Below, piece by piece: positions 22,601 through 30,645 of a DNA stretch of 64,000 nt (position 1 is its first letter; each line of letters opens with the position of its first letter). The stretch lies in contig NZ_ATVR01000004.1 of NCBI RefSeq assembly GCF_000420825.1, positions 62,001 to 126,000 of the forward strand, written 5' to 3'. Source of the stretch: Butyrivibrio sp. AE2015 (lineage in GTDB: Bacteria > Bacillota > Clostridia > Lachnospirales > Lachnospiraceae). The notes beneath the pieces were generated by a model. That model worked only from the letters and a program-made list of their open reading frames with translations, had not been told where the DNA came from and ran no database searches. The position numbers and the translations under genes are program-made.

Positions 22601-23465
22601 GAAAAAAGCTGTAGACACAGGTCTTTTCAAGGCTGACGGCATATATGTATGCAAGAACAAGGTTGCAAAGCCTACAGTATTTATTCCGGTATTCCCTGGA
22701 ACAAACTGCGAGTATGACAGTGCACAGGCCTTTGAAAGAGCCGGTGCAAATACAAATATTAAGATATTCAGAAACAGAGATGCTCAGGATATCAGAGAAT
22801 CAGTTGAAGAGTTCAAAAAAGCTATTGAGCAGGCTCAGATCATCATGTTCCCTGGCGGATTCTCAGCCGGTGACGAACCTGACGGAAGTGCTAAGTTCTT
22901 TGCTACAGCCTTCCAGAATGAGGAGATCAAGGCAGCAGTTGAAGACCTCTTACAGAACAGAGACGGACTTGCACTTGGTATCTGTAACGGTTTCCAGGCT
23001 ATGATCAAGCTCGGCCTTGTACCAAACGGCAGAATTACAGGACAGGATGAGAACGCACCTACACTGACATTTAACACAATTGGAAGACATATTTCCAAGA
23101 TGGCTACAATAAAGGTTGTTTCCAACAATTCACCTTGGCTTCAGAATGCAAAGCTTGGCGGAGTATACACAAACCCTGCTTCACACGGTGAAGGAAGATT
23201 TGTTGCACCTGAAGATGTACTTGATAAGCTCTTTGCAAACGGACAGATTGCAACACAGTACTGCGACCTTGATGGAAACATCACAATGGATGACGAGTGG
23301 AACATCAACGGCTCCTACAGAGCAGTTGAAGGTATCCTTTCACCTGATGGAAGATGCCTTGGTAAGATGGCTCACTCAGAGAGACGCGGCGACGGCGTTG
23401 CGATCAACATCTACGGCGAGCAGGATATGAAGATATTCGAATCAGGAGTACAGTACTTTAAGTGA
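19662..23465 (+). CDS. purL: Phosphoribosylformylglycinamidine synthase, single-chain type
   Basis: 1267 residues, the large one-chain form that fuses PurS, PurL and PurQ functions. In order: a PurS-like N-terminal region, two ATPase halves (WSDHCRHTTFGTEL near residue 222; HNHPTEIEPFGGAATCLGGA) and a C-terminal glutaminase (FPGTNCEYDSAQAFERAGA; nucleophile Cys in LGICNGFQ; catalytic His in SHGEGRF). It converts FGAR to FGAM with glutamine and ATP in purine synthesis. GAGGAGA lies before the ATG. carA follows after a 176-bp structured spacer, not another pur gene. Confidence 0.96.
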   Translation: MSSVRRIYVEKKQPFAGKARELRHEIKSYLGIESVSDVRIFIRYDVENISDEVFEKACRTVFSEPPVDILYRENIEVPSGAVVFSIEALPGQFDQRADSAEQCVRFIKGDEEPVIKTAVTYMLIGNMTSEEVSKIKEYTMNPVDSRIADETKPETLVTNYDEPEDVAVLDNFCTMSDENFENLYKSLGLAMTLNDFKWIRQYFNDDEHRNPTMTEIRVLDTYWSDHCRHTTFGTELKNVEFGEGDYRAPIENAYNDYLAARDSLYQTEEKKKEKFISLMDIALMGMKKLKKDGKLTDMEESEENNACTVVVPIDVDYGEGVKRENWLVFFKNETHNHPTEIEPFGGAATCLGGAIRDPLSGRGYVYQAMRVTGAADPTVPVAETMKGKLSQKKLVRGAASGYSSYGNQIGLATGYVKEIYHPGYVAKRMEIGAVMGAAPQEHVIRESADPGDIIVLLGGRTGRDGCGGATGSSKAHDSKSLTSCGAEVQKGNAPTERKLQRLFRRPEVSELIKKCNDFGAGGVSVAIGELAPGLDINLDLVPKKYAGLDGTELAISESQERMAVVVAPKDVDKFLGYAGEENLEAVKVAVVTEEPRLVLNWRGKKIVNLKRAFLDTNGAHQETNVKVEIPSKADNYLEQTASEGVKEALSKGDVKKAWLSVLNDLNVCSQKGLVEMFDSSIGAGSVLMPYGGKRQLSETQTMIAKLPVLSGKTDTVTMMSYGFDPYLSSWSPYHGAAFAVTESVSRIVASGGDYKKLHFTFQEYFKRMTEDASRWSQPFTALLGAYEAQMKFGLASIGGKDSMSGSFNEINVPPTLVSFAVDVAQLSDVVTPELKKAGNKLVQFKLPRDSYDLPDYEKIMALYEKINALMKKKAIVSAYAEDAYGIAASVSKMAFGNGLGVKIDDSISAKELFANDIADIIAEVPAEFVSDAVNAGARVIGEVTDDSTFTACGVSFSEEEALESWKEKLEKVFHSTVNEEKKAVDTGLFKADGIYVCKNKVAKPTVFIPVFPGTNCEYDSAQAFERAGANTNIKIFRNRDAQDIRESVEEFKKAIEQAQIIMFPGGFSAGDEPDGSAKFFATAFQNEEIKAAVEDLLQNRDGLALGICNGFQAMIKLGLVPNGRITGQDENAPTLTFNTIGRHISKMATIKVVSNNSPWLQNAKLGGVYTNPASHGEGRFVAPEDVLDKLFANGQIATQYCDLDGNITMDDEWNINGSYRAVEGILSPDGRCLGKMAHSERRGDGVAINIYGEQDMKIFESGVQYFK

Positions 23466-23474
23466 TATAGCAGA

Positions 23475-23522
23475 CCAAAGTCAACTTGTCATGTGTTTAC
23501 ACAAATGACAAGTTGACCTTGG
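23475..23522. repeat. 18-bp inverted repeat after purL
   Basis: Arms 23475-23492 and 23505-23522 match with one mismatch at 23479. The 12-nt centre holds a small GTGT/ACAC dyad. No T-run follows, so it is not a normal terminator. It differs in sequence from the GGGACGG repeats. Confidence 0.7.
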
Positions 23523-23529
23523 GATGCGA

Positions 23530-23604
23530 ACATACATGAGGGAAAAAGCACGAAGTGCGATTTCCGAATGTATGTAGGATTGCGAGAGTGAAGCGGAGCA
23601 ATCC
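23530..23604 (+). repeat. Composite GA-flanked hairpins upstream of carA
   Basis: Hairpin 1: ACATACAT (23530-23537) pairs with ATGTATGT (23568-23575), GA faces GA, then GGAAA/TTTCC and a GCAC/GTGC tip. Hairpin 2: GGATTGC (23577-23583) pairs with GCAATCC (23598-23604), again with GA on each side next to the stem. The fold style recalls the elements at 8603 and 48741, although the sequences differ. Confidence 0.45.
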
Positions 23605-23641
23605 GTATATCACTCAAGCCACATGTACAGAGGAGTAATTC

Positions 23642-28220: not shown

Positions 28221-28880
28221 TCAAATCCATGTTGCCCGAAGGTTTCTGTATTCTGCGACCATAGGAGCCAATTGTCTGAATCCAATGTGTCCGCCTGTCA
28301 ACAGGTCGCCATAAGTGTGACCGTCATCAACGAATTCAAATATCTGTAAGTCGTTAACATAGAAATTGACTTTATTCTTATTCTTTATCACTTTTATTTT
28401 GTACCATTCAGATTCCACTGATGCATCAGGAATAGGATCTGCTCCCTGAGCTACCAGGTGGAAACCATAGCTTTTTCTTAGATTACAGGTGTGGAAGGCC
28501 CTTTCATCAGGCTCTTTTCTCCTGAAATAAGAAACGTGAAAAGCATTTATGTCGCCACTGTGATACTGCTTGTATTCACCGGTTCTTTTGCTTAAAGACT
28601 CATCGAATATGCTTCCGCCACTTCTGGCTTTTGCAGCAAAGAACATAATGGCCAGTCCCGGCTCTTTTAATGGGCGGAATTCCCATTCAATCTTCACATC
28701 AGAAGGAAAAGCTTCAGGACACCATAAAACGTAGTTTGCCTTCTGGCCTTCACTGGCAGACAAGGCATTCTCAAGCCTCATTGCCCCATCAGGAAAACTG
28801 ATCTTGGCACTGCCTTCAAGGATGAACTTTGAAATGTCCTCCTGACATGCAAGCGGATTTTCATAAATTAACTTGCTCAT
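28221..28880 (-). CDS. DUF1961 family protein (YesU-like)
   Basis: 219 residues with a concanavalin-like jelly-roll look: alternating strands such as VKIEWEFRPLKEPGLAIMFF and EWYKIKVIKNKNKVNFYVND, and a final HIGFRQLAPMVAEYRNLR. This pattern fits YesU/DUF1961 proteins found with pectin or rhamnogalacturonan genes in other Bacillota. No signal peptide is visible. No other polysaccharide gene adjoins it here, so the substrate remains open. GGGGGTT precedes the start on the minus strand. Confidence 0.72.
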   Translation of the reverse strand: MSKLIYENPLACQEDISKFILEGSAKISFPDGAMRLENALSASEGQKANYVLWCPEAFPSDVKIEWEFRPLKEPGLAIMFFAAKARSGGSIFDESLSKRTGEYKQYHSGDINAFHVSYFRRKEPDERAFHTCNLRKSYGFHLVAQGADPIPDASVESEWYKIKVIKNKNKVNFYVNDLQIFEFVDDGHTYGDLLTGGHIGFRQLAPMVAEYRNLRATWI

Positions 28881-29425
28881 TTTGTAACCCCCAACGAATG
28901 TTTAATACACTACATTGCCTATTATAGCAGATGGGTAGGCGGTTTGGACCTTTGTTTTTTATCTGAATATGATTTTCATCAGGAAAAAGAAATAGTGAAA
29001 AACACATTCTAAAAACCATTAATTTAATAATGTTTTAATAGTTTGCTAGAGCTATATGCCCAGATCAACATTTTTACACCATTATATGTTCTGTATCTTT
29101 TTGCTGATATCTTTTGGGGAGAAAACATCGAATAAAGATGTATGTCTAAAAAAAATCCGGTACTTTTGGGGGTACTTTTGGCGATGTACGGATAAGAATG
29201 CCGATAAAGTGCAATCTTATCCGTACAATCTGTCATTAGACACTTCATATTTCGCGTGACATACGGATAAGACAGCATACAACATGCAATCTTATCCGTA
29301 AAAGGAAAGATCATTGAGCAAAAAATGACCATATTGTACGGATAAAAATAAAGAATAGTGCTGAAGTTATCCGTACGATGGGATGAAAAGGAGAAAATCT
29401 ACAAGTATCACTTTAAATGAGTGGT
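28881..29425. other. 545-bp gene-free region with a regular dyad array
   Basis: Short open frames on both strands here have no ribosome binding site or family resemblance, and I reject them. The left part (28881-29110) is AT-rich and should hold the promoter of the DUF1961 gene, though I cannot point to clear boxes. At 29157-29179 GGTACTTTTGG occurs twice, 12 bases apart. The right half holds three long dyads at 29186-29376, described separately. Confidence 0.7.
29186..29376. repeat. Array of three 41-nt dyads with 75-bp period
   Basis: TACGGATAAG and its complement CTTATCCGTA bound units 29186-29226, 29261-29301 and 29336-29376. Unit starts are exactly 75 bases apart. Centres are 19, 19 and 21 nt and mostly differ, although units 1 and 2 share TGCAATCTTATCCGTA. 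The third has TACGGATAA/TTATCCGTA arms. The spacers between units are 34 nt and differ. No neighbouring gene explains it. Confidence 0.9.
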
Positions 29426-29830
29426 TTATTTAAATGGCACATGAGCGCCAGTGAATGAAACTACTGCGACTAGTTTGTCGAGGTCGTCTGTCACAGTGAC
29501 TTCGAAGAAGCTGTTCCTTTTGCCGTCTTTTAAGAGCCTGGCTTCTGCAAAAAGCTTGTTTCCTTTGGTTGCTGACATAAAGTTTGCCTGACCTACAAGG
29601 CTGACAGTAGCATATTCTTTTTCATAGTTGGATGCAACCGCAAAAGCAAAATCAGCCAGTGTATAGATGGCGCCGCCCATTATGCCACCATAGGCATTCT
29701 TGTGTTTTGGAGTAAGCTCCATACTGCATTTGGAATAGTTTTCACCTATTTCATCTATTACTGCACCGGAAAGCTCTGTGGCATACAGATCTTTTGAAAA
29801 AACTTCTCTTGCATCTTCAAGTGTTCCCAT
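29426..29830 (-). CDS. PaaI-type hotdog thioesterase
   Basis: 134 residues, one hotdog domain. The family motif around the catalytic Asn/Gly/Asp region reads HKNAYGGIMGGAIYTLADFA (about residues 43-62), with ASNYEKEYATVSLVGQANFM after it. It would hydrolyse an acyl-CoA or aryl-CoA thioester in the cytosol. The true acyl group is not predictable. It follows aroQ on the same strand, with a small terminator-like hairpin between them. GGGGAT precedes the ATG. Confidence 0.83.
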   Translation of the reverse strand: MGTLEDAREVFSKDLYATELSGAVIDEIGENYSKCSMELTPKHKNAYGGIMGGAIYTLADFAFAVASNYEKEYATVSLVGQANFMSATKGNKLFAEARLLKDGKRNSFFEVTVTDDLDKLVAVVSFTGAHVPFK

Positions 29831-30346: not shown

Positions 30347-30540
30347 GTTCTTTCTGCTCCTGTTTCCAAATTTATCATGTTAAAAAAGATTATAAATAAT
30401 GAGAAGGCAGAATAAAAGGAAAAAATACTCATTCAGAAAAAACAAATGTGAAAATAGGGGTCAGAAAAATGCAAAATAAAAACAAAATTCCCCTTGCACC
30501 TGCTATTGAATTGGTGTATAAAGAGAAAGGAAAATTTAAC

Positions 30541-30632
30541 AGACGGGAGCTTGTATTACAGGCTGAGAGGAAGGTGTGACCTTCGACCGAGAACCTGATT
30601 TGGATAATGCCAACGTAGGGATGCCTGATACA
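30541..30632 (+). ncRNA. TPP riboswitch (THI element)
   Basis: The thi-box core is clear: GGCTGAGAGG (30571-30580), GAACCTGATTTGGATAATGC (30591-30610) and CAACGTAGGGATG (30611-30623), with a P3 stem GAAGGT/ACCTTC. P1 can form from CAGAC/GCCTG with one A.C mismatch. A terminator-like hairpin follows. It lies 128 bases before thiW and should turn the thiamine operon off when thiamine pyrophosphate is plentiful. Confidence 0.96.
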
Positions 30633-30645
30633 TAGGAGAATATTC

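Follow-up and report, generated by a model that had tools for sequence, protein, structure and literature searches.

Introduction

Homing endonucleases of the PD-(D/E)XK and EDxHD types recognise long and specific sites, show a selfish-looking spread, and are encoded beside the sites that they recognise. Repeated dyads precede nuclease genes in type II toxin-antitoxin systems and in the controller operators of restriction-modification systems, with autoregulation the likely outcome, while type III toxin-antitoxin systems (ToxIN, CptIN) carry a repeat array upstream of the gene for a toxin nuclease of a different fold, the array there acting as RNA. Families of homing endonucleases are listed in PMC6083498. 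Most similar to the locus presented here are the REP and REPIN sequences and their RAYT (TnpA-REP) partners, described in PMC3116915 and PMC8266576 as short palindromic extragenic DNA that has co-evolved with specific nuclease-like proteins, the RAYTs being HUH enzymes with folded single strands as their substrates.

Here we describe an array of DNA dyads in a window of 64 kb (the whole stretch of DNA analysed) from Butyrivibrio sp. AE2015, the genome of which (G000) is one of a genus sample of 79. The array is probably a DNA platform of cognate sites to which one member of an unnamed family of PD-(D/E)XK nucleases would bind, and it belongs to a widespread and apparently undescribed family of site arrays.

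The array and its surroundings

Three directly repeated dyads, assigned to neither strand, occupy positions 29187..29375. A de novo scan for at least three tandem dyads (8-nt exact seed, no more than two mismatches) recovers this array, no second one in the window, and none from 10 dinucleotide-shuffled windows. Each dyad has a symmetric core of 39 nt, with the cores starting at 29187, 29262, and 29337, a period of exactly 75, and with an TACGGATAA-R arm at one end and the matching inverted TTATCCGTA arm at the other. The half-sites lie at 29187-29196 and 29216-29225 in unit 1 (29187..29225), at 29262-29271 and 29291-29300 in unit 2 (29262..29300), and at 29337-29346 and 29366-29375 in unit 3 (29337..29375), the last pair being symmetric over 9 bp. 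Two spacers of 36 nt separate the units, of which spacer 1 (29226..29261) keeps its length more than its sequence, and spacer 2 (29301..29336) measures 35 nt in the G087 orthologue. TACGGATAAG, allowing no more than one mismatch, is matched 8 times in the 64 kb against 2.25 expected, with six of the eight being array arms. The first-pass annotation of this DNA had reported three dyads at a constant period of 75, with a last unit one pair shorter and an inner sequence common to units 1 and 2, all of which we confirm; the arms of unit 3 are one base pair shorter, and the common inner sequence is TGCAATCTTATCCGTA. Its unit length of 41 nt is correct where an outer G-C pair exists, in units 1 and 3, and fails for unit 2, where A and A stand outside the core, leaving 39 nt as the symmetric core that all three share.

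The gene-free region of 545 bp described at first pass is likewise present, as the gap 28881-29425 between genes for a DUF1961 protein (28221..28880, minus strand; PF09224, E 3e-98) and a hotdog thioesterase (29426..29830, minus strand), both given as context, with the thioesterase gene adjoining the orthologous array in G012 and G087 as well. That the array serves an ordinary regulator as an operator for one of these neighbours is suggested by its location, with the DUF1961 start 308 bp downstream of it, however same-type arrays are found beside other genes, in tandem, convergent, and divergent pairs, making this reading very improbable. The number of units at the window locus varies between strains, as the annotation proposed should be checked, with 3 units in the window genome, 4 in G012, and 5 in G087, the extra units of the latter two arising from duplication of the middle unit (unit 2 type). 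In these relatives the array lies farther from the DUF1961 gene than in the window (28961-29090 against L107 and L027), with roughly 2 kb of extra DNA in G087 and 4 kb in G012, and the extra G012 DNA includes a 47-nt remnant of an inverted-repeat element. Elsewhere in the window, a Clostridiales-1 RNA (RF01699) lies at 23461-23614 (+), directly upstream of a carA-like gene, and a TPP riboswitch (RF00059) at 30535-30639 (+), before an apparent thiamine gene cluster.

Related dyads in other genomes

The annotation's suggested search for further units revealed same-type arrays elsewhere in the genome, in 7 of the 79 genus genomes, and in other phyla. The spaced pair TACGGATAA-N18-24-TTATCCGTA occurs 12 times in the window genome, with three copies in the window, three on contig C28, four on C39, and two as lone dyads on C24. 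A pattern of three half-sites returned 61 stretches among 84,980 species genomes, 56 of them with at least two units of the array type, from Butyrivibrio, other Lachnospiraceae, Saccharofermentans, other Clostridia MAGs, Treponema, other spirochaetes, and a Fibrobacter MAG. The remaining five, from Mucilaginibacter, Bacteroidaceae, Paenibacillus, Deltaproteobacteria, and Leptolyngbya, show no second unit at the usual span and spacing and were excluded. The stretch from Leptolyngbya sp. PCC 6406 (L075:6127-6325) has three shorter dyads with ACGGATAA-like arms and an 82-bp period, and may be either a separate kind of repeat or a remote relative. Arrays with TACGGATAA arms, an 85-bp period, and a different class of inner sequence are found in G087 (L110:4226-4604) and G012 (L112:5798-6092), adjoining in both a sensor-kinase-like gene (named by eye). 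A phage origin was considered and rejected, with three IMG/VR contigs carrying one dyad each, about the number expected by chance on a rough estimate, and two peptide patterns finding no relatives of the linked protein family on viral contigs.

The linked protein

In 12 of the 61 pattern-found stretches the array adjoins the gene of a PD-(D/E)XK-type protein of ~270–317 amino acids, and in all 12 it lies upstream of the start; six are from Treponema and other spirochaetes, four from Butyrivibrio, one from Saccharofermentans, and one from another Clostridiales MAG, with two of the 12 stretches ending inside the locus. Three members tested match no Pfam or NCBIfam family at cut-off, while their C-terminal part is similar to the nuclease part of PDC-S68, a phage-defence candidate in PADLOC (best model, E 9e-23 to 5e-27). 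Eight residues (R184, K186, E188, E205, D219, E234, H235, and G237) are invariant in 79 aligned sequences, made up of 76 of 83 paralogue translations (230–340 amino acids, no stop) and three queries, and follow the PD-(D/E)XK-type pattern R-S-K-S-E ... YE ... PDF ... EH-G. An AlphaFold2 model of moderate confidence (mean pLDDT 78) begins with a long N-terminal helix, followed by a small sheet, a second long helix, and a C-terminal alpha-beta domain in which the catalytic-type motif sits, with the acidic residues E188, E205, D219, and E234, the order of elements in the model, and the PADLOC models all agreeing with the PD-(D/E)XK superfamily. Foldseek matches to the model are weak (all E > 0.1), and include R2 retrotransposon proteins, MunI, and an Hjc-type resolvase, with prefoldin matching the helical part; a sequence search of the PDB gave no solved relative below E 0.1, and a PHROG of Holliday junction resolvases is matched by 4 of 10 members (best E 7e-4). 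The protein is a putative nuclease that would cut DNA. A comparison of 182 pairs, with half-site words normalised by eye, gave no clear signal for a segment of the protein that tracks half-site sequence, the best partial r being 0.46 for residues 116-130.

The family is present in 69 of the 79 genus genomes, at one to ten copies each, and patchily beyond, in 16 of 291 genomes of the class at E <= 1e-20. A form at least 94% identical to the TACGGATAA-linked protein occurs in five of the 79 (G008, G012, G077, G087, and, truncated, G000), all five of which carry TACGGATAA dyads, and in none of the 72 genomes that have no exact TACGGATAA dyads; apart from these five, the matches listed are ~33–54% identical to the query. 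Two genomes have dyads without this form of the protein, namely G065, with its array at the end of a contig, and G086, with a single isolated dyad.

In all five genomes the nuclease locus follows a lysS-like gene (named by eye). The G000 locus (contig C38, L197:2302-3208) is without its array and without roughly the first 60–70 codons of the gene, a deletion of ~600 bp relative to G087, one end of which falls within the first half-site of the array. Because this locus has lost both array and gene start, G000 retains its TACGGATAA sites only as orphans, in three arrays and two lone dyads, and the window array is best read as one of these, the nuclease of its genome being truncated. The annotation had proposed looking for a linked DNA-binding protein, integrase, or HUH enzyme; an enzyme was indeed found, encoded however at another locus and of PD-(D/E)XK type, neither integrase nor HUH. 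Downstream of the truncated nuclease, a gene of 404 amino acids (L197:3581-4795) resembles at its N-terminus, as judged by eye, integrases of phage or ICE type.

Arrays beside paralogous genes

Paralogues of the protein also adjoin arrays, with arms of other sequence and the same geometry. Among 90 distinct genus loci chosen by protein and having at least 250 bp upstream (three duplicates were dropped and two loci set aside for a short upstream region), arrays of at least three dyads were found at 42, with 35 upstream, 9 downstream (88 tested), and two loci having both, the orthologous loci being non-independent and the 42 arrays representing 32 distinct seed words, some of which are shifted readings of one arm. 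None lies inside the nuclease gene at these loci, and none was found in 360 shuffled upstream regions. A first pass with a 9-nt seed and two units allowed had given 27 upstream and 8 downstream arrays at 81 loci (one G000 place counted twice), against 0 of 243 shuffles. Outside the genus, 19 loci were retrieved solely for the similarity of their protein and represent five families within the class, the window's own included; 11 of them show arrays, with ten upstream, two downstream, none in the gene, and 0 of 370 shuffles, so that the genus and outside shuffles pooled give 0 of 730. At 48 of the 90 genus loci and 8 of the 19 outside loci, the test found no array. Arrays are present in 37 of 104 gaps longer than 250 bp beside a nuclease, compared with 3 of 37 other gaps at the same loci, two of the three belonging to a nuclease's own downstream array.

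Examples of paralogue arms include TACGGATAA, CACAGATAA, GTAGGATAA, ATAGGATAA, ATTGACTAA, GGTATATAA, AGCATATAA, TATACCTAA, ATGACTTTT, TTACTGTTG, and TCCGACGCA, with TAA on the inner side of many and a dyad span mostly of 36–40 bp; G044 has a ACATGACC-armed nuclease. Several types may share a genome, with TACGGATAA, GTAGGATAA, and TGCCTATA in G012, and TACGGATAA, TGCCTATA, TTACTGCA, and TTACGTGA in G087.

The placement of these arrays bears on an alternative in which the protein is an autorepressed toxic or defence nuclease, its array mainly an operator that restrains the harmful enzyme until infection or damage frees it, and the orphan arrays decoys or relics. The upstream position in 35 of the 42 positive genus loci would suit this alternative, as would the 4 of 10 upstream arrays outside the genus that overlap, or lie no more than 30 bp from, the earliest possible start codon, the invariance of the catalytic-type residues, and the similarity to PDC-S68. 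PDC-S68 is however itself a candidate system only, arrays in high-copy repeats and the downstream-only arrays (7 of 42) are left unaccounted for, and among the neighbours listed no partner gene recurs across phyla and no methylase or antitoxin was noted, as judged by eye. We regard this alternative as plausible, though less likely than not.

Spacing of the dyads

Dyad spacings in the genus cluster at 51–54 (33 gaps), 63–65 (27), 73–76 (60), 83–85 (15), and 93–95 bp (7), with ten rarer gaps in total at 103, 104, 108, 116, 126, 147, and 150 bp, each single or nearly so. When each seed word contributes a single period, phase coherence reaches R = 0.90 for a repeat of 10.45 bp (n = 32), compared with a maximum of 0.61 among 3000 random sets; an initial set of 62 periods had yielded R = 0.81 at 10.55 bp. 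Outside the genus R = 0.92 at 10.30 bp and 0.89 at 10.5 bp (n = 11), compared with a random maximum of 0.88. The period test omitted the L281 downstream array and a gap of 164 bp. Only 1 of 197 spacings (61) falls in the zones 56–61, 67–72, 77–82, and 87–92, which were defined after the histogram was seen, as do 3 of 87 orphan-array gaps (67, 68, and 71). A repeat of the 10.5-bp type is the pitch of B-DNA, and the dyads face the same side of the DNA.

Half-site conservation

Across five sets of orthologous arrays, differences number 27 of 970 positions in the arms, 107 of 925 in the dyad interiors, 86 of 1325 in the spacers, and 508 of 3247 in the flanks, such that half-sites change about 2 to 6 times slower than their surroundings, with pairs within a set non-independent and the discovery of loci through exact arms somewhat favouring conserved arms. 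Spacers and inner parts are homologous between orthologous arrays, with spacer divergence of 3–13% depending on the set. The annotation's proposal that selection acts on paired half-sites and on their spacing is upheld by the slow change of the arms and the quantisation of spacings in helical turns. It had also offered a decayed 75-bp tandem repeat as an explanation. Duplication of the middle unit, which changes the unit number, is the kind of event expected of a neutral repeat without function, however the slow change of the half-sites (at loci chosen by exact arms), the existence of dozens of arrays that share one geometry while differing in sequence, and the helical quantisation all contradict it, and of the readings weighed here we give it the least credence.

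Departures from the arm consensus are chiefly uncompensated. In 205 units of three families, counted with arrays not oriented, 150 are one-sided, 14 are double changes that keep the pair, and one differs on both sides, with the Butyrivibrio TACGGATAA arrays showing 27 one-sided changes versus one that keeps the pair. When linked arrays are read in the sense of the nuclease gene, G-U and A-C mismatches stand at 11 and 12 in Butyrivibrio, 18 and 18 in Treponema, 7 and 7 in L136, 1 and 4 in L125, and 5 and 9 in L127, while in the Saccharofermentans and Clostridiales units G-U predominates on the sense strand (15 versus 3, six units). The GTAGGATAA family has 97 one-sided arm changes, of which 84 are transitions of wobble type (50 G-U and 34 A-C as read, unoriented).

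These counts bear on whether the array could instead be transcribed as a string of hairpins, functioning as a type III antitoxin-like RNA or as a sponge. The dyads can fold, the array precedes the nuclease gene as ToxI precedes ToxN, the 15-to-3 lean is in the direction expected of RNA, and the wobble-type changes of the GTAGGATAA family are compatible with pairing in that family alone. Against this, the other oriented families are without a G-U lean, one-sided changes outnumber pair-keeping ones in the three families and in the Butyrivibrio TACGGATAA arrays, and no Rfam match was found at gathering thresholds over the window array or at six related loci. Steps of 10.5 bp in the spacers further disfavour an RNA, since a single strand has no need of them. 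An RNA function is therefore very unlikely, and with it the RNA hairpins among the annotation's options, for which the strand-asymmetry, helical-phase, and one-sided-change results leave little room. On balance, the half-sites would be DNA sites rather than RNA stems, the weak points of this conclusion being the six units of the 15-to-3 family and the transition-rich GTAGGATAA family. An array of binding sites is the best of the options that the annotation had listed.

Dispersal of the arrays

Exact GTAGGATAA dyads number 17 in G012, 5 in G087, 2 in G079 (beside the nuclease), and 1 in G000, with none in the remaining 75 genomes. Fifteen GTAGGATAA places away from nucleases have 4–7 units each. 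A modular repeat of ~1.2–1.5 kb accompanies all but one of them, with both inverted ends around the array at 7 of the 15 and parts on one side at 7 more (several of these at contig ends). GTAGGATAA arrays occur in G087 and G000, yet among the loci examined GTAGGATAA-flanked nucleases were found only in G012 and G079. A single 4.5-kb query containing the repeat gave 66 hits in G000 and 107 in G087, with pieces counted separately, and 18 further G087 copies comprise five with CATGACCTA arrays, two with GTGGGATA-type arrays, and 11 without an array. The TACGGATAA array on C28 of G000, like its G012 and G077 relatives, is also embedded in this high-copy repeat, tested copies of which have no Rfam match. 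Copies of the repeat such as L223:1832-3334 (G012 C51), among L223-L237 and L246-L263, have inverted ends of 200–280 bp and carry one of three array types or none. The inverted-repeat element was rejected as the carrier of all arrays, since it accompanies most GTAGGATAA orphans, the C28 array, and the relatives of the latter, with no inverted flanks at the tested nuclease loci or in the window. A target-site duplication was also rejected, with CGATG bordering the window array on both sides and not the G087 orthologue, and none consistent at the other arrays listed.

Such dispersal raises the alternative of a mobile or homing repeat system, similar to REP-RAYT, in which breaks made by the nuclease at arrays would drive the copying of arrays, or of array plus gene, with orphans as non-autonomous copies. 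Orphan arrays of the nuclease's own type are dispersed through the genome, some within copies of the high-copy inverted-repeat element; an array flanks the gene on both sides in L127, L186, and L281; in G087, ~770 bp of the array region beside the nuclease is found again 7.5 kb away; and the patchy spread of the family and the arms common to several phyla are consistent with movement. Conversely, array edges have no consistent target-site duplication, the nuclease locus looks static in the genus, following the lysS-like gene in five genomes, and the inverted-repeat element could carry arrays passively. We hold this alternative to be a real contender, if somewhat short of an even chance.

Proposed function

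The arrays, their linkage and co-occurrence with the protein, their geometry and helical quantisation, the conserved half-sites, and the invariant catalytic-type motif are computed results, upon which the platform reading builds. Two identical inverted half-sites of 9–10 bp, spanning ~36–40 bp, would be bound by a symmetric nuclease dimer. Because the dyads repeat at whole helical turns (5, 6, 7, 8, 9, or more), such dimers may sit on one face of the DNA, in contact, and so oligomerise. Since most linked arrays lie directly upstream of the nuclease start codon, the platform may double as an operator for the nuclease gene, probably keeping the enzyme scarce and parked, although the downstream placements (9 of 44) are left unexplained by an operator role. 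The paralogues differ in half-site sequence and share one geometry, for which reason no cross-reaction among resident enzymes is expected. Arrays elsewhere could be further landing sites, deposited as copies by mobile repeats or through the activity of the nuclease itself.

Considered separately, with the estimates overlapping, a binding platform is very likely, an operator role through autorepression is evenly poised, nuclease-driven spread falls somewhat below that, and a defence or toxin role is lower again. Speaking against the platform are the genomes in which GTAGGATAA arrays and nucleases are mismatched, the two genomes (G065 and G086) with TACGGATAA dyads and no protein of the >=94% form, the loci without arrays, the downstream placements, and the spacings 61, 67, 68, and 71, which break the rule. 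The absence of a protein segment that clearly follows the half-site, and the moderate structure model with no PDB match better than E 0.1, weigh against it as well. A broader proposal may tentatively be made, with slightly less than even confidence, of a two-part element in which fast-diversifying PD-(D/E)XK nucleases form one-face oligomers on self-encoded arrays, control themselves, and spread their arrays, with several orthogonal pairs per cell and with pairs having crossed phyla.

If right, the platform reading provides natural pairs of nuclease and site that have one geometry and differ mainly in the half-site, with several per genome and a patchy spread across Clostridia and into spirochaetes, from which a DNA-recognition code could be read by comparison and orthogonal long-site DNA binders obtained. 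It would also make an apparently undescribed addition to the inventory of repeat dispersers in bacterial genomes, with the helical quantisation a clean and testable sign, from sequence alone, of protein assembly on DNA.

Comparison with known systems

No description of this system was found in the open-access literature searched, with most subscription journals outside that search; the pairing of array and nuclease is apparently new, the nuclease fold being already known. As with homing endonucleases, the nuclease gene adjoins its site, on both sides at the three loci noted above, however here the gene is accompanied by phased arrays of several units, with no intron, intein, or conserved-gene target seen. 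Type II toxin-antitoxin and restriction-modification operators differ in that an apparently single protein, long arrays, and orphan arrays genome-wide are found here. PDC-S68 has a homologous C-terminal nuclease domain, whereas its models run to 1202–1273 positions, compared with ~270–317 amino acids here, and have another N-terminal part. The type III toxin-antitoxin systems differ in that the indirect evidence here, from sequence tests, favours DNA over an RNA antitoxin repeat, and the arrays also depart from CRISPR-like ones, with homologous spacers in orthologues and helical spacing.

The arrays and nuclease work most like REP-RAYT pairs but fail two of their defining features. The protein linked to the repeats is of PD-(D/E)XK type rather than an HUH/tyrosine (Y1) transposase, and the repeats are not hairpins that keep their pairing (150 one-sided changes versus 14), the GTAGGATAA family being less clear. 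In place of such hairpins are interrupted dyads with about 19 bp between the arms, placed in tandem on one face of the helix and with arm changes mostly uncompensated. What the two systems share is the presence of several repeat types per genome, each tied to a specific nuclease-like protein, with G012 and G087 showing several types that each have a cognate nuclease beside a copy.
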